A stretch of DNA of 10,480 nt from Candidatus Schekmanbacteria bacterium GWA2_38_11. GTDB lineage: Bacteria; Schekmanbacteria; GWA2-38-11. Where the stretch lies: positions 1 through 10,480 of the forward strand of contig MGDB01000008.1 in assembly GCA_001790645.1 (NCBI GenBank), in the 5' to 3' direction. How positions within the stretch are numbered: the first letter of the stretch is position 1; every line of letters begins with the position of its first letter. Below are positions 1-10,480 of this stretch, piece by piece. The notes under the pieces are model-generated. The model made no database searches. It had not been told where the DNA came from and saw only the letters and a program-made list of their open reading frames with translations. A program made the translations under genes and the position numbers.

Positions 1-1
1 T

Positions 2-424
2 GACCCTCTGCCATTTTGCCACCTTATATTTCTCGCCCATTTTACAATCCATGTCACATATTGCTTCGCAGGGATTACTCATCTTATACTTTTTCGTTGC
101 TTCAAAATGAGGGCATACTTCTAAATGTTCGTACCAGACAGGCTCGCCATTTTCCTCTTTTTTTTCAATCCATATCTTCCATCCAAAAGTGGGGAAAATA
201 TTAACTTCAGCCATCATAATATCGCCAATGTCTTTACCTTTAAACTGGGCAGACCTTTTCTGAAAGTTGACCTCAAATATCTTTTCGTATATCTCTTTTC
301 CCTTGTCCTTCCCATAAAGTTCAACAAGGCTTTGAAGAAGCTGAGGAAGCTTCAGAGCGTATTTATCAATCAGCATCTCCCTTTGCTTTTCCCAGGGAAT
401 CTCCTTGCCTTTCTCTATACTCAT
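2..424 (-). CDS. Partial ATC-hydrolase-like family protein (3' end beyond window), paralogue of the 595-1086 gene
   Basis: The reading frame opens with ATG at 424 (minus strand) and runs without a stop for 141 codons to the window edge, so the C-terminus is missing. An AAAAGGAG ribosome binding site lies on the minus strand at 431-438, seven bases from the ATG. Residues 81-127 closely match the neighbouring gene: both have a W-I-E-x-K-x-E stretch, V-W-Y-E-H-L, then C-P-x-x-E-x-x-K-K and a C-x-x-x-C-D motif. Cysteines are at 104, 119, 123 and 127. The cysteine spacing and W-Y-E-H segment recall the L-2-amino-thiazoline-4-carboxylate hydrolase (ATC hydrolase) family, whose members are mostly uncharacterised. 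No signal peptide or membrane segment is visible. The gene probably follows its paralogue in one transcript, with two repeats in the 170-bp gap. The family call is by motif memory and the substrate is unknown. Confidence 0.7.
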   Translation of the reverse strand, partial: MSIEKGKEIPWEKQREMLIDKYALKLPQLLQSLVELYGKDKGKEIYEKIFEVNFQKRSAQFKGKDIGDIMMAEVNIFPTFGWKIWIEKKEENGEPVWYEHLEVCPHFEATKKYKMSNPCEAICDMDCKMGEKYKVAKWQRV

Positions 425-454
425 ATACAACTCCTTTTCACTAAAAATTCTTTT

Positions 455-504
455 GCGGGGTTAGAAAACCCCGCCTATCGATAGGCGGGACATTCTTGTC
501 CCGC
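455..504 (-). repeat. Three-hairpin palindromic repeat, copy 1
   Basis: Read on the minus strand there are three consecutive hairpins. A is GCGGGACA, loop AGAA, TGTCCCGC (504-485). B is a short central palindrome, CCTAT/ATAGG. C is GCGGGGTTTTCTAACCCCGC (474-455). The central part CCCGCCTATCGATAGGCGGG (470-489) is a perfect 20-bp palindrome overlapping both neighbours, so alternative folds exist. Hairpin C is identical, in the opposite genomic orientation, to the hairpin at 3324-3343. Read in the direction of the adjacent gene, both copies lie just upstream of a start codon. No T-run directly follows hairpin C, so it is not a standard terminator. Confidence 0.9.
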
Positions 505-525
505 TGGTCATATTTTTTTAATATT

Positions 526-586
526 GATTACACAGATTATAACAAGATTACTCAGATTGTTCCTTTAGGAGGTAATCTGTGTAATC
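526..586. repeat. Fold-back repeat with 14-bp perfect inverted ends
   Basis: GATTACACAGATTA (526-539) is repeated as its exact reverse complement TAATCTGTGTAATC (573-586). Inside, GATTACTCAGATT (546-558) is a near copy of the left arm in direct orientation, and AACAA (541-545) / TTGTT (557-561) form an inner inverted pair. The element fills most of the space between the stop codon of the 595-1086 gene and the three-hairpin repeat. It has no coding potential. A transcript could fold it into a long stem, but no T-tract supports termination. Confidence 0.85.
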
Positions 587-594
587 CTATTCTA

Positions 595-1086
595 TTAATC
601 CTTCCAGTCCCTGATTTTAAAAGTGCATTCCTCTTTCTCATCTCCCATTCTTGATAATACTTCCCATCGCCCCCTTTTATCTCTTATAGCAAGCTCAACA
701 TCGTAATCGCAGAGGAAATCACATGGTATTTCTTTTAATCCCATTTTTTTTGCGGTCTCAAGAAAAGGGCATTTTGTCAGATGTTCATACCAAACATCTT
801 CTCCGCCTTCCTGCTTTTGCTCTATCCAGAGTTCAAATCCGAGTACCGGAAAACTTACCAGTTCCCTTTTCATCAATTCACCGACCGGAAGTTTTCCTCC
901 GGGGAAATTTTTTCTGATCCGTTTAATCCCTTCATCATAAAGCTTCTTGAATACTTCTTCTCCCTTTTTCTCTCCCAAAATCTTTTTTAAATCAAGGTAA
1001 AGGTTTATTCTTTCTGCAGCCATCTGGCTTGCCAATTTTTCCTTTTGTACTTCTATTGGTATCTGTTCAGGTTTAGGTAAGCGCAT
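595..1086 (-). CDS. ATC-hydrolase-like family protein, complete
   Basis: A 163-residue soluble protein with no signal peptide or membrane segment. The start is ATG at 1086 with an AAGGAGGG ribosome binding site on the minus strand (1091-1099). The N-terminal half is helical and charged. The conserved part runs from about residue 83: G-F-E-L-W-I-E-Q-K, then V-W-Y-E-H-L (98-103), C106-P, C122-x3-C126-D and a C-terminal G-D-x(4)-C154-x-F. This pattern resembles the ATC-hydrolase-like family named after L-2-amino-thiazoline-4-carboxylate hydrolase. Most members have no known function, so the substrate should not be assumed. Its downstream neighbour is a clear paralogue, which suggests a tandem duplication with later divergence, mostly in the N-terminal half. 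The gene diverges from the pilus operon and need not be related to it. Confidence 0.8.
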   Translation of the reverse strand: MRLPKPEQIPIEVQKEKLASQMAAERINLYLDLKKILGEKKGEEVFKKLYDEGIKRIRKNFPGGKLPVGELMKRELVSFPVLGFELWIEQKQEGGEDVWYEHLTKCPFLETAKKMGLKEIPCDFLCDYDVELAIRDKRGRWEVLSRMGDEKEECTFKIRDWKD

Positions 1087-1152
1087 TTTCTCCCTCCTTA
1101 AAAAAATTTATTTATTGTTTCAAAATATAAAGGCTTATAACCATTTTCTTTT

Positions 1153-1181
1153 TTGTTAGCATACGATTTTTATCTTGTCAA
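1153..1181 (-). promoter_or_regulatory. Possible sigma-70 promoter for the minus-strand gene pair
   Basis: On the minus strand a perfect -35 hexamer TTGACA (1181-1176) is followed after 17 bp by TAACAA (1158-1153). TG sits one base before the latter, as in an extended -10. The predicted start near 1146 leaves a leader of about 60 nt before the ATG at 1086. The -10 match is only 3 of 6, so support comes from the -35, the spacing and the TG. Confidence 0.4.
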
Positions 1182-1290
1182 ATTTTTAATTCATTTGATA
1201 TATCCCACCTCAAACTGCTCTAAAACAATCAACTACCCAGCGGCAGAGACCGCAGGGTATCAAAATCAAAATAACGTGGTCGTCTGTTGT

Positions 1291-1333
1291 CATTCCTGCC
1301 TGCCTGCCGGCAGGCAGGCGAAAGCAGGAATCC
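1291..1333. repeat. Hairpin repeat (ATTCCTGC...GCAGGAAT) carrying a nested 20-bp palindrome
   Basis: The outer arms ATTCCTG (1292-1298) and CAGGAAT (1325-1331) enclose the perfect palindrome CCTGCCTGCCGGCAGGCAGG (1299-1318). Removing those 20 bp restores a simple hairpin with an 8-bp stem and a GAAA tetraloop, ATTCCTGC-GAAA-GCAGGAAT. That form is close to a common intergenic repeat style (CATTCC...GGAATCC). A near-identical 20-mer sits in a different hairpin at 3281-3300. The stretch has no believable protein; the short reading frames across it are chance. Confidence 0.85.
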
Positions 1334-1344
1334 AGTGTTTATGG

Positions 1345-1423
1345 AAATCCCCCTTTGTCCCCCTTTTCCAAAGGGGGATTTAAGATTTCCCCCCTTTAAC
1401 AAAGGGGGGGTGAGGGGGGATTT
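1345..1423. repeat. Paired inverted C-rich/G-rich palindromic repeats
   Basis: The left unit has a perfect 13-bp stem, AAATCCCCCTTTG (1345-1357) with CAAAGGGGGATTT (1369-1381). The right unit has CCCCCCTTT (1389-1397) with AAAGGGGGG (1401-1409) and ends in GGGGGGATTT (1414-1423). The right unit read in reverse complement resembles the left unit, so two copies of one family appear to face each other. The outer arms AAATCCCCC and GGGGGATTT can also pair across the whole 79 bp. No coding potential. Confidence 0.85.
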
Positions 1424-1687
1424 TCGGGTCAATGACGGCTGTTAATATTATTTTTTACCCCGAAGCAAAGCTTTGAGGAATTCTTATGATTAAAAAAATA
1501 AAAAACCTTCCCCTCATCAGCGTCAAATTTCTTCCGGTTGTGTCCAGAACTCGACGTTCCTTGCTCATTTTAAGGGAAAAGCCTCATCATTTTAACTTTT
1601 TGCATTAAAATAATTAATTCTGCATTTTCAATTAGTTAAGAGTGTATAAAATTTTTCTCTATTTAATAATTTAAAATATCAGCGTTT

Positions 1688-1703
1688 TGGCACAGGATTT
1701 GCT
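1688..1703 (+). promoter_or_regulatory. Sigma-54 (RpoN) type -24/-12 promoter of the signalling/pilus operon
   Basis: TGGCAC (1688-1693), five bases, then TTGCT (1699-1703) fits the RpoN consensus TGGCAC-N5-TTGCW, including the invariant GG and GC and their spacing. The predicted start is about 1714, giving a leader of about 48 nt to the kinase ATG. Sigma-54 promoters need an AAA+ enhancer-binding activator, and none is encoded in this window. Pilin genes of several bacteria are RpoN-dependent, so control of a pilus operon in this way is plausible. Confidence 0.8.
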
Positions 1704-1720
1704 TAAGAGGGTAGATGTCC

Positions 1721-1748
1721 AACATAGATGTTAAACATTAACGTTTAA
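1721..1748 (+). promoter_or_regulatory. Inverted repeats in the untranslated leader of the kinase gene
   Basis: Two short symmetric motifs lie between the predicted transcription start and the ATG at 1762: AACAT-AG-ATGTT (1721-1732) and TTAAAC-ATTAAC-GTTTAA (1731-1748). They overlap slightly and could be an operator or a weak leader hairpin. They are AT-rich, so chance is a real alternative. No Shine-Dalgarno motif is visible directly before this ATG. Confidence 0.25.
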
Positions 1749-1761
1749 AATAAAAAATTTT

Positions 1762-3267
1762 ATGGAAAAAAAATTATCCCGCATTTCAAAATTCTCTTTT
1801 CTATCTTATTTCGGGAAAAACTCTAAATACATAGTCTTAGCCTTAATAATTATTTCAATCCTGACCCTTATCTTCATGACCTTTAATGCTTATAAGGACA
1901 ATAAAAAAATCGTATATCTCAAAGATATAATCCTCACTCTTCTTTTAGTCTCTGCACTGGGTTTTGTGCAGTATTATTTCTTGAGGAATATGGTCAAGCC
2001 AATGCAAAACCTTCATCAAAATTTAGAAGAATTTGTTAAAACAGATAAAGATTTATCCAATAAAGACAAGGAAAATGAAAGAGAAAACAGAGAAATTGGC
2101 AAATTAATAGAAAATATAAACTCAACTATAATTAGTTTTGACCATGCTAAAAAAGAGCTTCTTGAGGATAAGACTGAGCTGGAGTTATCCTTTAAGATGA
2201 TCTCATATGAAAGAAAAAGGCTCCAGTCAGTTTTGGATTGCCTGCCAGAAGCCCTTGTGGTGACCGGCCCTTCAGGAGAAATACTTTTCGCAAATAATGT
2301 AGCTGAAACGATATTTAAGTTTTCGAAAAAAGACGTTTTAGGGAAAACCCTAAAAGGCTTAATAAATGATAGTAATCTTAAGGGGTTTGTTGAAAAGAAT
2401 GAATTGGCAGAAAATCGAGTTTTAGTTCAGGAAATGGAAATAGGAAACAATGGAGAGGGTATCAGGAAATCATTCAAGGTCATATACGATCTTGTAAAGA
2501 GTGAGAACGAAAAGGTTTTAGGAAATGCTTTGATCCTTATAGATAACTCTCACCAGAAAATGGCAGAGCAGATGAGAAACGATTTTGTTTCATCTGTTTC
2601 TCATGAACTGCGAACCCCTCTTACTTCAATAAAATCCAAAGTAGAAATGCTCTTAGATGAAGAAGTTAATGATAAAGATACTCAAATTGAATTTTACAAT
2701 GGAATTATTGAAGAGGTGGATAGACTCTCTAACCTGATAGAAAATCTTCTTAATATTTCAAAGATAGAATTAGGTAGTGCCTCAGTTAATAAGTCATCAG
2801 TTCGAATTAAGAAATTACTTGAGGATAGCTTTCTTATGATAGAGCCGCTGGCTAATAAAAAAGGAGTGACTCTCCATAAAGACATCCCTGATAGACTTTC
2901 AGCAAGTGTTGAACTTGATAAACAGATGATACAGATGGCGATTAACAATTTAGTAGGCAATGCTATTAAATACACTCCTAAAGGAGGGGAAATATATCTT
3001 GAAGGAGAAGAGAAAGAAAAAGAGGTAATTATTCATGTAAAGGATACAGGTATCGGTATACCAGAGGAAGATCAGCCACACGTTTTTGAAAAATTCTTCC
3101 GCTCAAACCAGAAAGAAGTAAGAGAAAATCCAGGCAATGGTTTAGGGCTCTCAGTCGTTAAACAGATAGTAATGCTTCATGGAGGAGAAATAAAGTTAGA
3201 AAGTAAAGTAGGACAAGGTACACATTTTACTCTAACTCTGCCTAAAGAGCGAGGGAGCATAGTTTAA
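1762..3267 (+). CDS. Membrane sensor histidine kinase with PAS domain
   Basis: 501 residues. Two membrane segments (about 22-42 and 51-74) are joined by a loop of only about eight residues, so no extracellular sensor domain exists. A HAMP-like/coiled-coil linker (75-155) leads to a PAS domain (about 155-265). The HisKA domain has its phosphoacceptor H281 in S-H-E-L-R-T-P. The ATPase domain has its N box around N395-N400, G1 D428-T-G-I-G-I-P, an F box F442-E-K-F-F and G2 G458-N-G-L-G-L. All catalytic motifs are intact and the layout resembles PhoR/ResE-type kinases. Sensing is probably by the PAS domain or the membrane. The next gene is a receiver, the obvious partner. ATG 1762 is the only start that keeps the first membrane segment, since an in-frame stop lies at 1732-1734. 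No clear ribosome binding site precedes it, which is unusual beside its neighbours. It is not PilS-like, because PilS has six membrane segments. Confidence 0.93.
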   Translation: MEKKLSRISKFSFLSYFGKNSKYIVLALIIISILTLIFMTFNAYKDNKKIVYLKDIILTLLLVSALGFVQYYFLRNMVKPMQNLHQNLEEFVKTDKDLSNKDKENERENREIGKLIENINSTIISFDHAKKELLEDKTELELSFKMISYERKRLQSVLDCLPEALVVTGPSGEILFANNVAETIFKFSKKDVLGKTLKGLINDSNLKGFVEKNELAENRVLVQEMEIGNNGEGIRKSFKVIYDLVKSENEKVLGNALILIDNSHQKMAEQMRNDFVSSVSHELRTPLTSIKSKVEMLLDEEVNDKDTQIEFYNGIIEEVDRLSNLIENLLNISKIELGSASVNKSSVRIKKLLEDSFLMIEPLANKKGVTLHKDIPDRLSASVELDKQMIQMAINNLVGNAIKYTPKGGEIYLEGEEKEKEVIIHVKDTGIGIPEEDQPHVFEKFFRSNQKEVRENPGNGLGLSVVKQIVMLHGGEIKLESKVGQGTHFTLTLPKERGSIV

Positions 3268-3271
3268 GTTT

Positions 3272-3343
3272 GTGGGACAACTTGCCTGCCGGCAGGCAGG
3301 GAATGTCCCACCTATATCAATAGGCGGGGTTTTCTAACCCCGC
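3272..3343 (+). repeat. Three-hairpin palindromic repeat, copy 2, with a nested 20-bp palindrome
   Basis: Hairpin A has arms GTGGGACA (3272-3279) and TGTCCCAC (3304-3311). Hairpin B is CCTAT-ATCA-ATAGG (3310-3323 region). Hairpin C is GCGGGGTTTTCTAACCCCGC (3324-3343), an exact reverse complement of copy 1 at 455-474. Hairpin A differs from copy 1 by a paired C/G to T/A change in its stem. Its loop also holds 20 extra bases, CTTGCCTGCCGGCAGGCAGG (3281-3300). The element lies between the kinase and its response regulator and ends 15 bp before the regulator's ATG. Its trailing AAAGGG is the only candidate ribosome binding site for that gene. No T-tract follows, so read-through is expected. Confidence 0.9.
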
Positions 3344-3358
3344 TAAAGGGATTTTCAA

Positions 3359-3751
3359 ATGGAAAAAAAGATTCTACTTGTAGATGATGAACCTTCAGTG
3401 TTGAGGGTCTTAGATATGAAGTTTAAGAATGCAGGGTTTAAGGTCTTAACTGCTTCAGATGGTATGGAGGGTTTGGAAATTATAGAGAAGGAACTCCCTG
3501 ATGTAGTAATAAGCGATAACCGTATGCCAAATATGTCAGGAATTGATCTATGTGTTGCCTGTAAGAAGATTAGAGAGAAGAGAAATTTTTTATTTATTAT
3601 GCTTTCATCCTACGCTTCGGTAACAAGTAAGCTTGATAGGGAATGGGTAAATAGCCTTTCTGATACGGTTTTTATCCCTAAACCTTTTAGCCCAAGAAAT
3701 ATCTTAAAAACAGTTAAAAAATACTTTGCAGACAATGAGGAAAGAGTTTGA
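3359..3751 (+). CDS. Single-domain (CheY-like) response regulator
   Basis: 130 residues, entirely one receiver domain with no output domain. The acidic pocket is D9-D10, the phosphoacceptor is D53 (in S-D-N-R-M-P), the switch residue is S83 or S84 in L-S-S, and K108-P109 is the conserved lysine-proline. All are present, so phosphorylation by the preceding kinase is likely. With no DNA-binding or enzymatic domain it must act by protein contact. The following HD-GYP protein and the pilus machinery are the nearest candidates (inference). The separation from its kinase gene by a 72-bp repeat is odd for a two-component pair. The ribosome binding site is weak (AAAGGG, 3346-3350 region). The next gene starts 12 bp after the stop. 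Confidence 0.93.
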   Translation: MEKKILLVDDEPSVLRVLDMKFKNAGFKVLTASDGMEGLEIIEKELPDVVISDNRMPNMSGIDLCVACKKIREKRNFLFIMLSSYASVTSKLDREWVNSLSDTVFIPKPFSPRNILKTVKKYFADNEERV

Positions 3752-3763
3752 AGGGTTTAAGAG

Positions 3764-5365
3764 ATGGAAACAGAGATCATTAATTGGAAAGAATACATTG
3801 ATGAGGAAAAATTTGAGAATCTCTTAGAAGACATCTTCGATTCTCAAGGCTATTCTATCAGCCTTTTTAATAACGAGGGAAAAAAATTGGTCAGAAAAAA
3901 CAGAGATAAACAGAATCACCTGGTCTGCGAAGAATTGAGGGAAAATGAGAATTTTTGTAATGAACATTATCTTAAAGCTCAAGAAGCAATTACAGGCAAA
4001 AGGGGAAACTTAAGCTTTTGTGCGAAGAATAGAGAGAGGTTTCTATTTTGTGCGCCTTTTAAGACATCTTCAGGAAAAAATCTTGGGGCTATTGTAGCTT
4101 GTAAAAGAGCAAAAGTTTTTGATTCGCACGGAGATAATTTAGAAGAGAATGAAGAAGAGGTTAATTTTCTTAAAGGTATTACCTCACTCTTAGCAGACAA
4201 AATTTATCAGGATATCGAAATCAGACACCTCTCTGCGGAATTAAATGCAAAATATGAAGAATTAGCTCTTTTATATGAAATAGGAGAAAAGACTCTCGTA
4301 AGTGACAGCAAGGATGAATCTGTCGAGTATATTGTTACCCGAGCAATGGAAACAGTGAATCCGTCGCTTGTTGTATGGTCAGTTAGAGAAGAGAATAAAA
4401 ATATATTTTACAGAAATCCTGAAAGGGAATCTGAAGATAAATTTATTAGTGATGAAATAATAATGGAGATATGCCGCAAGGTTTCACGCATGAGCAGCAG
4501 GTCGCGCGAACCTTTAATCCTTAACAATTTAAACAAGTATCGAGAGTTTGCAGGTATTTGGCAGGACCCAATAAATGTCCTTTCTATTCCCCTTGTAAGT
4601 GATAGCAAAGGGTTTGGATCTTTGAATTTTATTGAATGTAATCCAGAAAAGATATTCCTCAATGACCAGTTAAAGTTGATGGAGTCAATCTCAAGAAGTA
4701 CTGTTACTATATTAAAAAATTCAGAGTTATATGAAAAGCTCCAAAAGCTTTTTTTCAATGTCATCCGGATGCTTCTTGGAATCATAGAAAGCAAAGATAC
4801 CTATACTGAAGGCCATTCTAAAAGAGTTTATCAGATATCTGTTCAATTTGCAAAAATCCTTAAATTAAGCCGCAAAGATATATTTGATCTTCAATGGGGA
4901 GCAATACTCCATGATGTTGGGAAAATCACAATACCTACAGAGATTATTAAAAAGCCAGGTAAGCTTACATCTGAAGAGTATGAAATAATTAAATCTCACC
5001 CTGTAAAGGGAGCAGAACTTGTTTCAACCATTGATGAATTTAAAAATGCAGTAAAAGGGATAAGGTACCATCATGAGAGAATAGATGGAAAAGGTTATCC
5101 TGATGGACTACGAGGAACAGAAATCCCTTTAATTGCAAGAATAATCGGTATCGCTGATACCTTTGATGCTTTAAACAGTGCAAGACCTTATAGAGCAAAA
5201 CCTTCTCGGGCATTTGTCTTAGCAGAGCTCAAGCAATTAGCCTCTACTCAACTTGATTCATTGCTTGTGGAACTCTTGTTAAACAATTACGAGTTATTTA
5301 TCAAACTCCTTGATAGCGAGGACTACGAACTATTCGAGGATACTAATATAAAAGGGATCTGGTAG
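3764..5365 (+). CDS. PocR-like / GAF / HD-GYP protein, probable c-di-GMP phosphodiesterase
   Basis: 533 residues with three parts. Residues 10-120 look like a PocR-type sensory domain, with cysteines C55, C65, C86 and C96 in a pattern that could bind metal or a cofactor. Residues about 160-320 fit a GAF domain. Residues 330-533 are an HD-GYP domain with H351, H383-D384 (H-D-V-G-K), H412, H436-H437 (H-H-E-R), D441-G-K-G-Y-P446 and D465 in place, so an active phosphodiesterase is expected. The usual F-D-P near the end is L-D-S (about 497-499), a mild departure. No membrane segment is visible. Only 12 bp follow the response regulator, and the stop TAG shares a base with the GTG start of the next gene, so the block is co-translated. 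Its likely role is to lower c-di-GMP in response to the PocR/GAF input or the phosphorelay. The PocR assignment is less certain than the rest. Confidence 0.88.
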   Translation: METEIINWKEYIDEEKFENLLEDIFDSQGYSISLFNNEGKKLVRKNRDKQNHLVCEELRENENFCNEHYLKAQEAITGKRGNLSFCAKNRERFLFCAPFKTSSGKNLGAIVACKRAKVFDSHGDNLEENEEEVNFLKGITSLLADKIYQDIEIRHLSAELNAKYEELALLYEIGEKTLVSDSKDESVEYIVTRAMETVNPSLVVWSVREENKNIFYRNPERESEDKFISDEIIMEICRKVSRMSSRSREPLILNNLNKYREFAGIWQDPINVLSIPLVSDSKGFGSLNFIECNPEKIFLNDQLKLMESISRSTVTILKNSELYEKLQKLFFNVIRMLLGIIESKDTYTEGHSKRVYQISVQFAKILKLSRKDIFDLQWGAILHDVGKITIPTEIIKKPGKLTSEEYEIIKSHPVKGAELVSTIDEFKNAVKGIRYHHERIDGKGYPDGLRGTEIPLIARIIGIADTFDALNSARPYRAKPSRAFVLAELKQLASTQLDSLLVELLLNNYELFIKLLDSEDYELFEDTNIKGIW

Positions 5366-5712
5366 TGGAAGAATTAAATAAGATTAAAAAAAGTAAACAA
5401 GGGATCTTTTCTATAGTTTCAGTATCTGACGCCATAGTTGAAGATGTTGCTTCAGAATTTCAAAAAGCTGTTTCAGAATCTTTAGAGAGAGGAGAGGTAA
5501 AAATAATTTTGGACCTCACCTCTGTCCCCTTTATCAGCAGCAAGGGTTTGGAAATACTTTTGGAAATGCACAAAGAATCGCAGAAAAAGGGTGGAGGAAT
5601 AAAAATTGCAAGCCCGAGTGAAATATGTGTGGATATTTTCTATGCAACTCACTTGGCAAACTCATTGGAAATCTACTCTGATATAGAAAGCGCAAGGAGA
5701 AGCTTTTTGTGA
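5365..5712 (+). CDS. STAS-domain (anti-sigma factor antagonist-like) protein
   Basis: 115 residues forming one STAS domain. The diagnostic segment is D50-L-T-S-V-P-F-I-S-S-K-G-L62. Aligned to SpoIIAA, S59 matches the phosphorylated serine, while the preceding Asp is replaced by S58. That variation is common in stand-alone STAS proteins. The start is GTG at 5365, overlapping the previous stop by one base, with AAAGGGA (5351-5357) as ribosome binding site. The end overlaps the PilB start by four bases (GTGA). No partner kinase of the RsbW type and no PP2C phosphatase lies in the window, so its partners are unknown. Its position between the HD-GYP and PilB genes suggests it acts as a protein-protein switch on the pilus motor or its signalling (inference). 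Confidence 0.87.
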   Translation: MEELNKIKKSKQGIFSIVSVSDAIVEDVASEFQKAVSESLERGEVKIILDLTSVPFISSKGLEILLEMHKESQKKGGGIKIASPSEICVDIFYATHLANSLEIYSDIESARRSFL

Positions 5713-7442
5713 TAAAGCCAAAGAAAAATATGATGTTGGGAGAACTCTTAGTCTCCTCAGAGGTTATAACGCCAGACCAGCTAAATACTGCCCTTCAGAA
5801 TCAGAAAGAATCAGGGAAAAGATTGGGGCAGATATTAGTTGATATGAAAATAGTTACTCCTGATGTAATTGCTGAAACCTTAAGCCACCAGCTCGGAATA
5901 CCTCATTTATGGCTAAGACCCGGCTTAATAGACCCTCAGGTAGTAAACATCATTCCAAAAGAAAAGGCCAAGCTCTATCAGGTAATTCCCATGTTCAAGG
6001 TCTATCAAAATTTAGCCCTTGCCATGTCAGACCCCTACGCAATGAATGTAATTGAGGATCTGGAAAAGGTAACAGGCTGCTCCATCCAGCCGGTTTTATG
6101 CAGGTCCTCAGACATAAAGGAATTTATAGACCAATATTATGATGAAAAGATGGGAATAGATACCCTTCTTGATTCTTTTGAGGAATCGTCATCTGTTCAG
6201 GTGGTTGAGGATTCAAGTGACGGGGATAGAGATGAAATTAAACAATTAGCAGAAGGAAGCCCCATAATAAATCTTGTAAATCTTATTATGACAAAAGCAA
6301 TCCGGGACGGGGCAAGTGATATCCATATTGAACCTGATCTTAATAAAATAAGGGTCCGTTACAGGATTGATGGAATAATGCATGAAACAATGACATCAAA
6401 AAAGGAAGTGCTCCCCGCAATAATCTCAAGAATAAAAGTAATGGCAAAACTTGATATTGCAGAGAGGAGGATGCCGCAAGAGGGAAGAATTCATATCAGA
6501 GGAGAGGGAAGAGATGTTGATTTACGGGTTTCATCAATGCCTACAATAAGCGGAGAGAAAATAGTGATGAGAATTCTTGATAGGAAAAATACCATATTTG
6601 ACCTGAGTAAATTAGGATTTACCGGGAGAACGTTAGAAGTATTCAGGGATATGCTCCACAGAACTCATGGGCTGGTCTTGGTTACAGGACCAACAGGAAG
6701 CGGCAAAACCACAACCTTATATTCAGCAATAAACCAGATCATAACCCTTGAAAAAAATTTCATAACTATTGAAGACCCGGTGGAATATCAACTTGAGATA
6801 ATTAATCAGATTCAGGTCAATGAGCGGATAGGGCTCACATTCGCCAAGGTGCTTAGATCAATTTTAAGACTTGACCCGGATATAATTATGGTTGGAGAAA
6901 TAAGAGATAAAGAAACAGCAGAAGTTGCAATCCAGGCTGCTTTAACAGGACATCTGGTCCTCTCAACACTTCATACAAATGATTCTTGCGGAGCTGTTAC
7001 ACGGCTTCTTGATATGGGGATTGAACCATATTTAGTTGCATCCTCGGTAATTGGCTCTTTGGCTCAGAGATTACTGCGTATGGTATGCCCCAATTGCAAA
7101 ATGAGTTACATTCCTCCTCAGTCATTGCTCGAAAGGGCTGGATGGCAAGGTTCCCGAAATACTGTTCTTGTAAAGGGAAAAGGTTGTGAAAAGTGCTTCG
7201 ACTCAGGATTTAGAGGAAGGATCGGTATTTATGAAATGTTTGAAATAAATGAAGAGATAAGGCAGGCAATAACAAGGAATCCATCTACTGATGAGCTAAG
7301 TAAATTAAGAGAAAAATCCGGATTCAAGAGTTTAAGGGAAGAAGGGTTAAGGCTTGTCAGAGAAAATTTGACCACTATTGAAGAGGTTACAAGGGCTATT
7401 TATGCAGAGGATAGCCAGAAAACGATAAGGAAAATTGCATGA
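5709..7442 (+). CDS. pilB: Type IV pilus / type II secretion assembly ATPase (PilB/GspE family) with MshEN-like domain
   Basis: 577 residues. The N-terminus (9-61) carries two 24-residue MshEN-type motifs, L-G-x-x-L-V...L-x-x-A-L-x-x-Q (9-32) and R38-L-G...Q61, separated by exactly five residues as in c-di-GMP-binding MshEN domains. Motif 1 starts with M9 rather than Arg, and the usual mid-motif glycines are E18 and K47. Affinity is therefore uncertain. The ATPase part is complete: Asp box I-T-I-E355-D-P-V-E, Walker A G327-P-T-G-S-G-K-T, Walker B around E397 (V-G-E-I-R-D), His box T413-G-H...L-H-T, and zinc cysteines C460-x2-C463 and C493-x2-C496. It should power pilin polymerisation at the inner membrane. 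The start is GTG 5709 overlapping the previous stop, with AAGGAG (5694-5699) nine bases upstream; ATG codons 8-9 are less likely. GspE cannot be excluded by sequence, but the adjacent PilT-type gene favours PilB. Confidence 0.93.
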   Translation: MIKPKKNMMLGELLVSSEVITPDQLNTALQNQKESGKRLGQILVDMKIVTPDVIAETLSHQLGIPHLWLRPGLIDPQVVNIIPKEKAKLYQVIPMFKVYQNLALAMSDPYAMNVIEDLEKVTGCSIQPVLCRSSDIKEFIDQYYDEKMGIDTLLDSFEESSSVQVVEDSSDGDRDEIKQLAEGSPIINLVNLIMTKAIRDGASDIHIEPDLNKIRVRYRIDGIMHETMTSKKEVLPAIISRIKVMAKLDIAERRMPQEGRIHIRGEGRDVDLRVSSMPTISGEKIVMRILDRKNTIFDLSKLGFTGRTLEVFRDMLHRTHGLVLVTGPTGSGKTTTLYSAINQIITLEKNFITIEDPVEYQLEIINQIQVNERIGLTFAKVLRSILRLDPDIIMVGEIRDKETAEVAIQAALTGHLVLSTLHTNDSCGAVTRLLDMGIEPYLVASSVIGSLAQRLLRMVCPNCKMSYIPPQSLLERAGWQGSRNTVLVKGKGCEKCFDSGFRGRIGIYEMFEINEEIRQAITRNPSTDELSKLREKSGFKSLREEGLRLVRENLTTIEEVTRAIYAEDSQKTIRKIA

Positions 7443-8485
7443 TCCCAATCAAAGAACTTTTGGAATTAGCAACAACAAAAAGAGCTTCAGACGTCTTAAT
7501 AGGGGTAAATCTTCCACCCCTGTTTAAGGTAGATGGAGAGATAATCCGCTCTGAGTTCAGACCTCTCGGAGTTGAGGAATGCCAGAATCTTATTTTCTCG
7601 ATGCTAACTCCTAAAAAAGTAGAGGAATTTGTTAAGAAAAAGGAGGTTGATAGCTCCTTCGGGCTAAATAACCTTGGCAGATTCAGGCTGAATGTTCATT
7701 ACCAGAGAGGAAGCGTTGCCTGTGCTGTTAAGATTGTACCCAATTTAATCCCTGACTTGGAAAACCTTGGTTTCCCTGGAATCGTCAAAGAATTTTTAAA
7801 GCAGAAATTCGGTCTGGTTTTAATAACAGGACCGCAGGGTAATGGAAAATCAACCACAATTGCTTCCATGATCGAAGAAATAAATTTAACCCGCCCCAGT
7901 CACATAATAACTATTGAGAACCCGATAGAGTTCACTCACAAAAATAAAAAAAGCATGATTGAACAGAGGGAAGTAGGCCCGGATACAGATTCATCTCTTG
8001 AAGCTTTAAGGCATGTTCGCAGGCAGGCATGTGACGTAATAATGCTTGATGAAATGAGCGACTTGGAAACCATAGAAGAAGTATTAAAGGCTGCTGAACT
8101 TGGGCAATTAATCCTTTCCACCATGCATGCCTCTTCTTCTGCTGATGCCATTGAAAGAATCATAGAAATTTTCCCTGAAGCGAAGAGGAATCAGATCGCT
8201 TTCCAGCTCTCAATCGCTTTACAGGGAATAATCTGCCAGCAACTCATCCCCAGAAAAGATGGCAAAGGCAGGGTTTTAGCCTGTGAAATAATTCTCATTG
8301 ATAAGGCTCTAAGAGGCCTTATCAAAACCGGTGATATTGATGAAGTTAAAAAATATCTGGATTCAGGAGGCATGAAAGGTTCAATCAGTATGAGAAAGTT
8401 TATTGAGGACCTCTTCCGCAAAGGAATTGTAGGAGAGGACTCCCTAAGGAAAAAGACAGAAAGAGAATATGATGAGATATCTTAG
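7439..8485 (+). CDS. Divergent PilT-family ATPase
   Basis: 348 residues, the usual PilT length, with a PilT-like N-terminal segment (A-S-D-V-L...L-P-P-L-F-K-V-D-G) and a C-terminal A-L-R-G-L-I-K-T-G segment matching the AIRAGA region. The nucleotide site is unusual throughout. Walker A is G131-P-Q-G-N-G-K-S-T instead of GPTGSGKST. The Asp box is I-E160-N161-P instead of IEDP. Walker B is L-D204-E205-M-S207-D instead of VGEMRD. The His box is L-G222-Q223...M-H230-A instead of TGH...LHT. The Walker A lysine K137 and a Walker B glutamate E205 survive, so ATP binding and perhaps hydrolysis remain possible. The N-terminal A-S-D-x-H-x motif has lost its His. ATG 7439 overlaps the PilB stop (ATGA), so both are made together. 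The role may be retraction, or a regulatory or accessory function like a PilU-type paralogue (inference). Confidence 0.88.
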   Translation: MIPIKELLELATTKRASDVLIGVNLPPLFKVDGEIIRSEFRPLGVEECQNLIFSMLTPKKVEEFVKKKEVDSSFGLNNLGRFRLNVHYQRGSVACAVKIVPNLIPDLENLGFPGIVKEFLKQKFGLVLITGPQGNGKSTTIASMIEEINLTRPSHIITIENPIEFTHKNKKSMIEQREVGPDTDSSLEALRHVRRQACDVIMLDEMSDLETIEEVLKAAELGQLILSTMHASSSADAIERIIEIFPEAKRNQIAFQLSIALQGIICQQLIPRKDGKGRVLACEIILIDKALRGLIKTGDIDEVKKYLDSGGMKGSISMRKFIEDLFRKGIVGEDSLRKKTEREYDEIS

Positions 8486-8501
8486 ACCTTATTCCCATAA
8501 T

Positions 8502-8561
8502 GTAGGGGTAAACCTTCAGGTTTGCCCAAAAGTTCGGACAAGGCTAAAGCCTTGTCCCTAC
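8502..8561. repeat. GTAG...CTAC two-hairpin repeat, copy 1
   Basis: A 60-bp element fills most of the gap between the PilT-like and PilC genes. It starts with GTAG and ends with CTAC. Inside are two 22-nt hairpins separated by eight bases: GGGTAAACCT-TC-AGGTTTGCCC (8506-8527) and GGACAAGGCT-AA-AGCCTTGTCC (8536-8557). GTAG and CTAC can pair, so RNA or single-stranded DNA would form a three-way junction. A second element with the same plan but different hairpin sequences lies at 10425-10480. Confidence 0.88.
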
Positions 8562-8592
8562 GGGTTTTATATTTGGCTGAGGTAAAAACAAT

Positions 8593-9708
8593 ATGGCTGA
8601 AATAGCACTAAATCTTCCTGACATAAAAGAGATTTTCGGGAAATTAAAAGGAATTAACCTATTCAAGAAAAGGGTTAAACTCAGGGACATAATTTGTTTC
8701 ACAAACCAGCTTGAAGTTATGACAGAGATGGGGACAGGCCTGGTTCCTTCTCTTAAAGCCTTATATGAACAGACAGAAAATGAGACACTCAAAGAAGCAA
8801 TTAAGACAATCGTTGTTGATGTAGAAGAGGGAAAAATGCTTTCTCATGCAATGGGAAAGCATCCCAAAGTCTTTTCAAATGTCTATGCCAGCATGATAAA
8901 AGCCGGAGAGACTGGAGGAGTCCTAAATGAGATGCTAAAGAGGCTTACAGTCTTTCAGGAAAAATGGGAAAAAATGATATCAAGTCTAAAATCTGCCACC
9001 ACATATCCCATGATACTAATAGGATTTGCTTTTACTGTTGTGATTTTCATGGTCTCTTTTGTTCTCCCGAGGTTTGTTGGAATATTCCACGGGCAAGAAA
9101 GTCTTCTTCCAGCGCCTACAAGAATTCTTTTGAATCTTACCGGTTTCTTCAAGAGCTATTGGTATCTTGTTATGATTTTTATTCTTATGATTATAGGAGG
9201 CGTTCATTATTTCCTAAAGCAGGAAAAAGGAGGTTATCTTCTCGATAAGTTTAAGATCAAAGCCCCGTTAATAGGAAAACTTTATCAGAACATATATGTC
9301 GGAAGAATAATGCGAATTATCGGGGTTATGCTTGATGCAGGAATACCACTGCTCGAAGGGGTACAAGTTACGAGGGCTACTATGGATAACAGACTATACG
9401 CCAGTTTCATAGACGATGTAATGGATAATATTAAGAGAGGAATAGGGATTTCTACTCCATTTAATGAGAGCCCGCTAATCCCCGCCACAATAAAGCAGAT
9501 GGTTAAAACTGGAGAGGCATCAGGGGCATTAGGCAGAGTCATGATGAGGATGGCTGATTTCTATGATGAAGAGTCTGAAAGATACATAAAAAAACTTACA
9601 ACCTTTATTGAACCGGCAATGATTGTTTGCGTGGGAGCAATTATAGCATTTATTGCCATGTCAATCATACTTCCAATATTCAAGATGTCATCAACAGTTG
9701 GGAAGTAA
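8593..9708 (+). CDS. pilC: Inner-membrane platform protein, PilC/GspF family
   Basis: 371 residues with the typical duplicated T2SSF domain. The first copy spans about 33-160 with A-G-E-T-G-G (104-109). The second spans about 235-365 with T-G-E-A-S-G (306-311) and E340-P341 before the last helix. Three membrane segments are at about 139-159, 189-207 and 343-363, as expected. The N-terminal tail before the first domain is short, so the protein is somewhat smaller than the usual 400 or so residues. It anchors the PilB/PilT motors to the inner membrane and helps load pilin. The start is ATG 8593, preceded at about ten bases by GAGG, a modest ribosome binding site. It is separated from the PilT-like gene by a 107-bp gap holding a repeat, and from the pilin gene by 74 bp. 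PilC and GspF cannot be separated with certainty by sequence. Confidence 0.92.
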   Translation: MAEIALNLPDIKEIFGKLKGINLFKKRVKLRDIICFTNQLEVMTEMGTGLVPSLKALYEQTENETLKEAIKTIVVDVEEGKMLSHAMGKHPKVFSNVYASMIKAGETGGVLNEMLKRLTVFQEKWEKMISSLKSATTYPMILIGFAFTVVIFMVSFVLPRFVGIFHGQESLLPAPTRILLNLTGFFKSYWYLVMIFILMIIGGVHYFLKQEKGGYLLDKFKIKAPLIGKLYQNIYVGRIMRIIGVMLDAGIPLLEGVQVTRATMDNRLYASFIDDVMDNIKRGIGISTPFNESPLIPATIKQMVKTGEASGALGRVMMRMADFYDEESERYIKKLTTFIEPAMIVCVGAIIAFIAMSIILPIFKMSSTVGK

Positions 9709-9725
9709 GGGGACAATGATAATTT

Positions 9726-9751
9726 GTAGGGGTCAATCTCTGTGTTGACCC
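9726..9751. repeat. Half of a GTAG-type hairpin repeat before the pilin gene
   Basis: GTAG (9726-9729) is followed by a hairpin with 7-bp arms, GGGTCAA (9730-9736) and TTGACCC (9745-9751), and an eight-base loop. The second hairpin and closing CTAC seen in the full elements at 8502 and 10425 are absent. It ends about 16 bases before the pilin ribosome binding site, so it could also form a leader hairpin of the pilin mRNA. Confidence 0.65.
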
Positions 9752-9766
9752 TCTTAATTCCAAAGG

Positions 9767-9777
9767 AAAGGAGGTGA
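9767..9777 (+). promoter_or_regulatory. Very strong ribosome binding site of the pilin gene
   Basis: AAAGGAGGTGA is an essentially full-length match to the 3' end of bacterial 16S rRNA, with its GGAGG core eight bases before the ATG at 9783. The other genes here have partial sites of 5-7 bases, or none. This predicts much higher translation of the pilin, as expected for the major subunit of a filament. Confidence 0.85.
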
Positions 9778-9782
9778 GATAA

Positions 9783-10319
9783 ATGAAAAAATTGTTAAAT
9801 GAGAAAAAGGGGTTTACCCTGATCGAGCTATTGTTAGTGGTAATCGTGCTCGGTATATTAGCAGCTCTGGCTATTCCGCAGTTTACTGATGCATCAAAGG
9901 ATACAAAAGAAGCATCATTGAAACAGGACCTCAGCATGATGAGGGATGCTATAGAGCGTTACTATCACCAGCATGGTAACAATTATCCAGGCGCTGTGGA
10001 TGAGACTGATGGTGTGGGCGCTCCTGCAAATGCTACTGCAGCAGCAACAGCTTTTACTAAACAGCTTACCCAATATTCAAATAAGGATGGAAAGATTTCA
10101 GCAACTTTGGATAAAGTCAATTACCCTTACGGGCCTTATTTGAAGACAGGGCTCCCAGTGAATCCTCTGCCTGCTTCAGGCAATCCTGTAAGTACAGTAA
10201 CGGCTGATATTACAGCTACGACTACTATTACTTCGGATGCATCTCCAACTACAGGATGGAAGTTTGCTACACTAACTGGCCAGTTGATTACAAATAATTC
10301 TTCATATGAAACCTGGTAA
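9783..10319 (+). CDS. Type IV pilin / type II-like pseudopilin, probable major subunit
   Basis: 178 residues. A short positively charged leader (M-K-K-L-L-N-E-K-K-G10) ends at the prepilin peptidase site before F11-T-L-I-E15-L, giving a mature protein of 168 residues with the conserved Glu at +5. The hydrophobic helix runs to about residue 31, followed by I-P-Q-F and an amphipathic helical stretch. The globular part has G-P-Y-L-K-T-G-L-P-V-N-P (117-128) and a C-terminal G-W-K-F...T-G-Q-L pattern, typical of GspG-like pseudopilins in many environmental bacteria. It is rich in Thr, Ala and Ser at 76-95 and 134-157, and has no cysteine, so no PilA/PilE-type disulfide loop. The very strong ribosome binding site suggests a major subunit. 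No prepilin peptidase lies in the window. Whether it forms a long pilus or a short pseudopilus cannot be read from sequence. Confidence 0.9.
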   Translation: MKKLLNEKKGFTLIELLLVVIVLGILAALAIPQFTDASKDTKEASLKQDLSMMRDAIERYYHQHGNNYPGAVDETDGVGAPANATAAATAFTKQLTQYSNKDGKISATLDKVNYPYGPYLKTGLPVNPLPASGNPVSTVTADITATTTITSDASPTTGWKFATLTGQLITNNSSYETW

Positions 10320-10332
10320 AGAAGAATTATTC

Positions 10333-10371
10333 TGTGATGGTGGCTCCGGAAAACCCGGAGCTACTGTCACA
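10333..10371 (+). terminator. Strong stem-loop after the pilin gene (mRNA 3' hairpin, not a classical terminator)
   Basis: A 17-bp stem (10333-10349 with 10355-10371) has no unpaired positions, three G-U wobbles on the RNA level and a five-base loop AAAAC. It starts 14 bases after the pilin stop codon. There is no T-tract after it, so intrinsic termination is doubtful. It could instead protect the pilin message from 3' decay, or partly attenuate transcription into genes beyond the window. An imperfect palindrome around AGTTTAAACT (10376-10402) follows. Confidence 0.6.
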
Positions 10372-10424
10372 GGCTGGTACAGGGTAGTTTAAACTGTGTA
10401 CCTTTAGTTATTCAGACTCAACTG

Positions 10425-10480
10425 GTAGTCGCAGGCTTTAGCCTGCGGAGAATATGACGCAACCTAAAGGTTGCGGCTAC
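10425..10480. repeat. GTAG...CTAC two-hairpin repeat, copy 2
   Basis: 56 bp with the same plan as the element at 8502: GTAG, an 18-nt hairpin CGCAGGCT-TT-AGCCTGCG (10430-10447), ten spacer bases, a second 18-nt hairpin CGCAACCT-AA-AGGTTGCG (10458-10475), then CTAC at the last four bases of the window. The hairpin sequences are unlike copy 1, so the architecture rather than the sequence is what the copies share. More sequence beyond the window could belong to it. Confidence 0.88.

Follow-up and report, generated by a model that had tools for sequence, protein, structure and literature searches.

According to the available parts of four papers (PMC3733652, PMC8266576, PMC3116915, PMC2817692), repetitive extragenic palindromes (REPs) and REPIN elements are mobilised by the REP-associated tyrosine transposase RAYT (TnpA-REP). 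Some REPs sit inside other palindromes, such as GTAG-23 of T. roseum and the GTAG-15 dimers of A. variabilis (section 7 of PMC3733652), and the importance of GTAG for cleavage varies among the TnpA-REP enzymes tested (available text of PMC8266576). Rickettsia palindromic elements (RPE) measure about 150 bp and lie in-frame in unrelated genes of Rickettsia species (available part of PMC10969869), and REP hairpins are preferred insertion sites of certain insertion sequences (available part of PMC1525189). The present analysis concerns a perfect 20-bp palindrome, CCTGCCTGCCGGCAGGCAGG, in a 10,480-nucleotide stretch of Candidatus Schekmanbacteria bacterium GWA2_38_11 (assembly GCA_001790645.1, contig MGDB01000008.1, positions 1 to 10,480), called the window in the following. 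Judged from sequence comparison, this palindrome is rather likely to be a non-autonomous mobile element which inserts precisely as 20 bp, spreads horizontally and is moved by a trans-acting activity.

Like REP and REPIN elements, the palindrome is short, dispersed and present in tens of copies per genome (71 in the genome of the window); REPs are thought to be moved in trans. Nesting within other palindromes is a further likeness, as described in section 7 of PMC3733652. REPs carry a conserved GTAG/CGTC tag, whereas the 20-mer is a perfect palindrome without such a tag. It differs also in having the same sequence in many phyla, in lacking a regular link to Y1 transposases, and in occurring in coding and tRNA-like sites as well. 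In-frame insertion into conserved genes, known from the RPE, is seen in the recG gene described below, but with 20-21 bp in many phyla instead of about 150 bp in Rickettsia; within the range of 14-26 bp, 20 bp was the best insert size in 44 of 62 copies. The REP-targeting insertion sequences likewise use hairpins as targets but carry their own transposase, unlike the 20-mer.

Further comparisons were made with elements of other types. An IS200/IS605 derivative would insert without target duplication, and the palindrome resembles it in this, as judged from its exact 20-bp difference to empty sites. IS200/IS605 elements use a fixed target tetranucleotide at the left end, whereas the target of the 20-mer is only degenerate (T at -2, pyrimidine at +1). 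Miniature inverted-repeat transposable elements have terminal inverted repeats, a target duplication and a parent insertion sequence; here, duplication was absent, and no parent was seen in the fetched DNA, a biased sample because it was chosen for holding the full 20-mer. Copies of DNA uptake sequences arise by point mutation and uptake bias and not by insertion, whereas the 20-mer shows exact empty/filled pairs. Mitochondrial double-hairpin elements and GC clusters are likewise tiny selfish palindromes nesting in one another, but they are organellar, and we know of no cross-phylum sequence identity among them. In the literature searched (most subscription journals and preprints lie outside its scope), the 20-mer and its 18-mer and 16-mer occurred in no main text, the peptide PAGRQA, searched in main texts together with them, yielded one unrelated paper, and among the papers listed for related topics, in lists of limited length, titles and abstract starts gave no description of the palindrome.

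The palindrome occurs twice in the window, and both copies lie in larger hairpins:

1299..1318, no strand: palindrome copy 1, CCTGCCTGCCGGCAGGCAGG, exact and perfect over 20 bp
3281..3300, no strand: palindrome copy 2, CTTGCCTGCCGGCAGGCAGG, one substitution relative to CCTGCCTGCCGGCAGGCAGG
1289..1335, + strand: host hairpin repeat of copy 1, GTCATTCCTG and CGAAAGCAGGAATCCAG, from folding and empty paralogues
3272..3311, + strand: host hairpin of copy 2, GTGGGACAA and GAATGTCCCAC, between a histidine kinase and a response regulator gene
3324..3343, + strand: second hairpin of the host composite of copy 2, GCGGGGTTTTCTAACCCCGC
455..504, - strand: inverted empty copy of this two-hairpin composite, with the loop at 485-504 free of the palindrome

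All six reading frames of CCTGCCTGCCGGCAGGCAGG are free of stop codons. A third match in the window (1295-1314) is copy 1 in a shifted register and not a separate copy; no matches were obtained after shuffling the window 200 times with dinucleotides preserved. The hairpins enclosing copies 1 and 2 fold well as single-stranded DNA (z scores of -4.9 and -6.0). Removal of 1299-1318 from the host of copy 1 leaves ATTCCTGC-GAAA-GCAGGAAT, an 8-bp stem with a GAAA loop, and five empty paralogues in the fetched DNA match across the junction. The filled host of copy 2 reads GTGGGACAA-[20 bp]-GAATGTCCCAC, and its empty twin at 485-504 reads, as reverse complement, GCGGGACAA joined to GAATGTCCCGC. A previous sequence-only reading of the window had reported the two positions, their one-base difference, the nesting in larger hairpins, the twin at 485-504 from which exactly 20 bp are missing, and the GAAA tetraloop; all of these were found again.

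Fetched DNA stretches (loci) are numbered with L and genomes with G. G000 is the genome of the window (2.11 Mb in 158 contigs, about 70% complete), G001 belongs to the same family, and G002 and G003 belong to the same order. All 71 copies of G000 and 19 of G001 were fetched (n=90), 20 bp were removed in silico, and matches crossing the junction were sought in the fetched DNA. Such matches were obtained for 57 of the 90 copies; under a stricter setting, the matches were ungapped for 46, exclusively gapped for 7 and absent for 37. The size of the removed piece was then scanned from 14 to 26 bp using ungapped matches, with ties split. An empty match at any size was found for 62/90 copies, and at 20 bp for 49/90. 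The best size among the 62 was 20 bp in 44 copies, 21 bp in 7, and another size in 11. When the scan was run on random positions within these stretches, 5/83 matched at any size and 0/83 at 20 bp; with host positions shifted by 35 bp, 18/89 and 19/89 matched at any size, and 5/89 and 2/89 at 20 bp. An earlier random control with a single size and a single placement gave 4/423. No target duplication was present at the empty/filled pairs. The 71 copies of G000 occupy 48 distinct 3+3 and 60 distinct 8+8 junction contexts, and one host repeat bears the palindrome at several points; therefore, many independent events are needed.

Three unrelated carriers with 46 copies were examined as well: G063 (Longitalea luteola), G089 (Doudnabacteria) and G334 (from a Patescibacteria sample). 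Empty matches were present in the fetched DNA for 25/46 copies, with 20 bp as the best size in 23. When the match at 20 bp was repeated with controls, it was obtained for 24/46 copies and in 1/138 shifted or random placements (G063, 17/22 versus 0, 1 and 0 of 22; G089, 3/12 versus 0; G334, 4/12 versus 0). The precise insertion of a tiny palindrome that had been proposed from the window alone is thus supported, and the exact 20-bp empty/filled pairs by which it was to be checked were encountered many times, also outside the bacterial family of the window.

The 16-base core of the palindrome, TGCCTGCCGGCAGGCA, occurs in 71 exact copies in G000, and the same core read backwards as control pattern in none. 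Of these 71, 53 match the 20-mer over its whole length; by design of the search, the remaining copies differ only in the outer two bases of a side. Core copies numbered 19 in G001 and zero in G002 and in G003, and three of 56 more distant genomes in the same search had one copy each. The exact 20-mer was found in at least 116 stretches of public genomes (one genome per species). Among the matches listed, the titles name Patescibacteria groups, Omnitrophota, Bacteroidota, Nitrospirae, Elusimicrobia, Verrucomicrobia, Planctomycetales, Chloroflexi and others, and they include cultured isolates and one record titled as complete genome. Longitalea, Mucilaginibacter, Flavivirga and Maribacter are cultured carriers within the Bacteroidota. 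Viral contigs contributed 33 stretches, and three control 20-bp palindromes of the same base composition 0, 0 and 0.

Two or more copies were counted in 28 of 30 public genomes, all of which had been picked as carriers; the maximum was 31. The family sample of G063, which we take to be Chitinophagaceae, contained 22 carriers among 147 genomes with 1 to 29 copies each, and the phylum sample of G069 (a Collierbacteria record), presumably Patescibacteria, 27 among 145; both samples include the carrier at their centre. The distribution is patchy, with multiplication in bursts inside individual genomes. The sequence-only reading had named few other copies in the genome, a lack of empty/filled pairs, and confinement to one larger host repeat as outcomes contrary to mobility; copies and empty/filled pairs proved to be many and hosts varied. 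Two Bacteroidota contigs (L136 and L215) have another perfect palindrome in common, TCCCGATAGCTATCGGGA, which is possibly a second element of the same kind. A variant of the palindrome lies within a 21-bp tandem array in a viral contig (L107:3900-4140).

Hairpin loops are frequent hosts in the family of the window. The junction was enclosed by a perfect stem of 6 bp or more in 36/71 copies of G000 (random, 2.8%) and 9/19 of G001 (random, 2.1%), and in 10/122 copies of the pooled public genomes (random, 2.3%) and 1/41 of the viral contigs (random, 2.1%). Folding placed 16 of 54 distinct G000 sites (30%) in a hairpin loop, compared to 4-11% of positions 6 to 10 bases away and 14% of random positions. 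The preference for loops suggested by the sequence-only reading is therefore strong in G000 and G001 and not general: stem counts and folding led to rejection of general hairpin-loop targeting outside this family.

Other genomes offer other hosts. In the Longitalea genome G063, two or more GCGTT or GAGATT motifs, picked after viewing the flanks, occur in the 80-bp flanks of 20/22 copies and in 2.6% of 6000 random windows, and 20/22 junctions can be written with TT on the right if either strand is allowed. The loci L277-L296 of this genome contain degenerate tandem arrays of GCGTT and GAGATTT types which host the palindrome. Considering G000, G063, G089 and G334, hosts therefore differ by genome and are often that genome's own small repeats. 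Hosts resembling tRNA were seen in 5/116 public stretches and 3/33 viral stretches, all recognised by eye except L098, a viral contig with the palindrome in the variable region of a tRNA-Met and the sole ARAGORN call with the junction inside. L145 has a fuller tRNA as host; the other four tRNA-like hosts in genomes were recognised by eye. Six loci (L105, L121, L152, L210, L217 and L268) show tRNA-like 5' fragments, by eye, which the palindrome interrupts at or close to the D arm.

The base to the right of the junction was counted on both strands for 255 copies in four groups; T accounts for 40-61% and A for 3-8%. The highest base frequency over 12 flank positions of these copies was 0.61, and there is therefore no conserved tetranucleotide. 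After orientation of the junctions by expectation-maximisation, T at -2 and a pyrimidine at +1 were preferred in G000 and G001 and, more weakly, in the pooled genomes; the viral set, unlike the other groups, prefers a purine at -1. Target sites are degenerate, and their most frequent arrangement is a purine (A or G) before the junction and a pyrimidine (T or C) after it.

Insertions into genes, which the sequence-only reading had also considered, find support in recG. The palindrome in the recG gene of L187 encodes LPAGRQ, and the T. maritima structure 1gm5 lacks seven residues at this place. Its nearest RecG relatives, at most 91% identical, are without the insert. At the DNA level, 18 relatives were read (19 fetched): 17 have no insert, and the remaining one, L301, carries at this codon an insert of 21 bp with another sequence. 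Inserts of the RPDGG type at this codon occur in L301 (recG of G392) and in the protein matches P0015, P0035, P0053, P0057 and P0060, which are scattered on the RecG tree. Among the best 120 of 1638 homologues, 104 have a short loop, 12 have 7 additional residues, 3 have 8, and 1 has 14; the 16 long loops comprise 4 with LPAGRQ or LPASRQ, 5 with RPDGG, 1 with PFDAAQG, and 6 of other kinds. In a tree built without the loop, long and short states switch 14 times, with at least 9 switches forced by supported branches, and 16 times on average with shuffled labels; this tree was made by a quick method without bootstrap, has several long branches, labels inserts by length alone, and merges gains and losses. 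The recG codon is a hot spot for several short inserts.

Altogether, 45/257 copies have 60 or more open codons on each side in the same frame, and many of these frames are probably not genes. The chorismate synthase of L170 differs from 1r52 by a net three residues, and recG shows a net 21 bp; selection for the reading frame may pick out such cases. A sugar mutase (L168) was dropped as evidence of insertion because its loop is too variable in length.

What the comparison of sequences shows is a difference of exactly 20 bp at many independent sites, a high copy number in single genomes, one sequence common to many phyla, and in-frame inserts in coding sequence. In the favoured reading, a mobile element moved in trans, each difference would be an insertion and not an excision, and the transfer would have been horizontal. 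The palindrome would insert as exactly 20 bp in most judgeable cases, without target duplication or loss of flanking DNA, at degenerate targets that are frequent in small dispersed repeats, such as the hairpin loops of G000 and the degenerate tandem arrays of Longitalea. It would cross between phyla and then multiply in bursts within single genomes. An activity not encoded by the element would move it in trans, most likely acting on single-stranded or looped DNA, probably during replication. Some copies spread passively when a host repeat was copied.

Several observations weigh against this reading. For 28/90 copies no empty match was present in the fetched DNA, and 18 of the 62 matched copies fit a size other than 20 bp best. 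At the positions adjoining the junction, filled and empty sites differ in 8/46 copies (-1) and 7/46 copies (+1), compared to about 5% on average at the remaining flank positions (this average includes -3 and +3, each with 6/46), and 9 of the 15 junction-adjacent changes go to A on the left or T on the right; clean cut-and-paste does not predict such changes. The peak in hairpin loops by folding was absent from the pooled genomes (13/120; random, 15%) and the viral contigs (4/39; random, 13%). The net difference in recG is 21 and not 20 bp, so that either the inserted length or what happens to it afterwards is variable. The occurrence of Y1 transposases does not follow that of the palindrome, as detailed below, and the case for mobility is one of sequence comparison throughout.

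Replication template switching, in which a nascent strand stalls, takes a copy of the palindrome from another place and then returns, would require no dedicated enzyme. Loops and short repeats are places where stalling of forks is expected, the type of host repeat varies by genome, and the 9 of 15 changes towards A on the left or T on the right fit this explanation. By itself, it leaves the mostly constant length and the single sequence across phyla unexplained, and the three control palindromes were in no stretch of the viral contigs; we regard it as unlikely.

The sequence-only reading had suggested that a Y1 (HUH) transposase of the REP-associated or IS200/IS605 type acts in trans on a single-stranded DNA hairpin. 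The lack of target duplication, the palindromic substrate and the loop-like targets in G000 would suit such an enzyme. Y1 matches were found in G000 (five, one with stops), in 18/20 carriers chosen for testing, and in all 10 carriers of the G063 family sample with at least four copies, although four of these ten matches reached only E values of 1e-4 to 1e-9. In G089, a stretch that had been fetched because it holds the palindrome also contains a Y1 gene, with a copy 167 bp away; in G000, two of the five matches have a copy at 379 bp (this match is a broken frame) and at 869 bp. Against this stand several results. In the G063 family sample, Y1 matches occur in 17/22 carriers versus 90/125 non-carriers, and the zero-copy relatives G002 and G003 have matches too. 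A search for Y1 in G334 (23 copies) and G072 (11 copies) found none. Forty Y1 regions fetched from the listed matches (153 kb) contained 39 Y1 frames and a single exact palindrome copy in all, and none of these 39 genes in Y1-centred stretches of carriers had a palindrome (up to 3 mismatches) within 300 bp. No GTAG or CGTC tag of the REP type was seen in the flanks of the 255 copies of the four groups. Y1 as discriminating factor is not supported by these results, the arrangement is not a regular REP-RAYT linkage, and little points to trans-acting transposition of single-stranded DNA; a Y1 enzyme as the mover is improbable to about the same degree as template switching. Since the Y1 linkage is irregular, mobilisation in trans by another activity was preferred, with template switching and Y1 as its rivals.

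Composite spread, the movement of host hairpin repeats with the palindrome already inside, accounts for a minority of copies, such as the variant CCTGCCTGCCGGTAGGCAAG, found three times in the fetched DNA of G000 and G001 at the same place in the same C-run hairpin, and several GTCATTCC copies with one common junction. As sole or general cause it is refuted by the 48 distinct junctions in G000; the several positions within one host repeat and the coding and tandem-repeat hosts of other genomes also oppose it, and it has very little probability left. A scar from excision of a larger element with 10-bp terminal inverted repeats, CCTGCCTGCC and GGCAGGCAGG, would yield a perfect palindrome from two joined ends, but is equally far-fetched in view of 125 full copies versus 19 solitary halves in 840 kb of pooled genomes, over half of these halves looking by eye like mutated full copies, and of half-site pairs none of which was element-like among the first 15 per group. 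No parent element with matching ends was recognised in the fetched DNA, biased as stated above. A sequencing or linker artefact was judged unlikely because flanks run on across the 20 bp and the 20-mer is present in the complete-genome record NZ_CP107030.1 of Maribacter, a genome with 4 copies.

The usual marks of a mobile element are its genes, its ends and target duplications. In this case, 20 bases seem enough for precise copying and for sharing between phyla, so that either another insertion activity exists or a known repair route acts unexpectedly. It is conceivable, although we would not quite favour it, that this bare 20-bp palindrome with six open frames is the smallest known horizontally transferred mobile DNA, written by a widespread bacterial activity into loops, short repeats, tRNA-like sequence and gene loops across phyla. 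The different inserts at one recG codon hint that this activity may handle other short inserts besides the palindrome. If the 20 bases do insert precisely, the recurrent LPAGRQ peptide in proteins of uncultivated bacteria would be explained by DNA insertions, which would matter for annotation and for indels in protein trees. The cultured Bacteroidota carriers open the question to bench testing.

Other features of the window near the two copies are as follows:

1345..1423, no strand: two C-run/G-run hairpins of the CCCCCTTT...AAAGGGGG family, empty in the window
1762..3267, + strand: PAS histidine kinase gene, with its end 13 bp upstream of copy 2
3359..3751, + strand: response-regulator-like gene, named by eye, with its start 58 bp downstream of copy 2

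Hairpins of the CCCCCTTT...AAAGGGGG family host the palindrome elsewhere in G000. The nearest taxon-named homologue of the histidine kinase is from Candidatus Schekmanbacteria (57% identity), with four closer matches at 58-80%; this would place the source of the window within or close to that group. Rfam gave no matches in the window at gathering scores. By eye, hairpins at 8499-8565 and 10425-10480 have a GTAG-like end, like GTAG-tagged REPs. The adjoining coding stretches at 1-430 and 595-1086, both on the - strand, look like paralogues by eye, and 5709-10319 contains type IV pilus assembly genes similar to PilB, PilT, PilC and pilin, also by eye.

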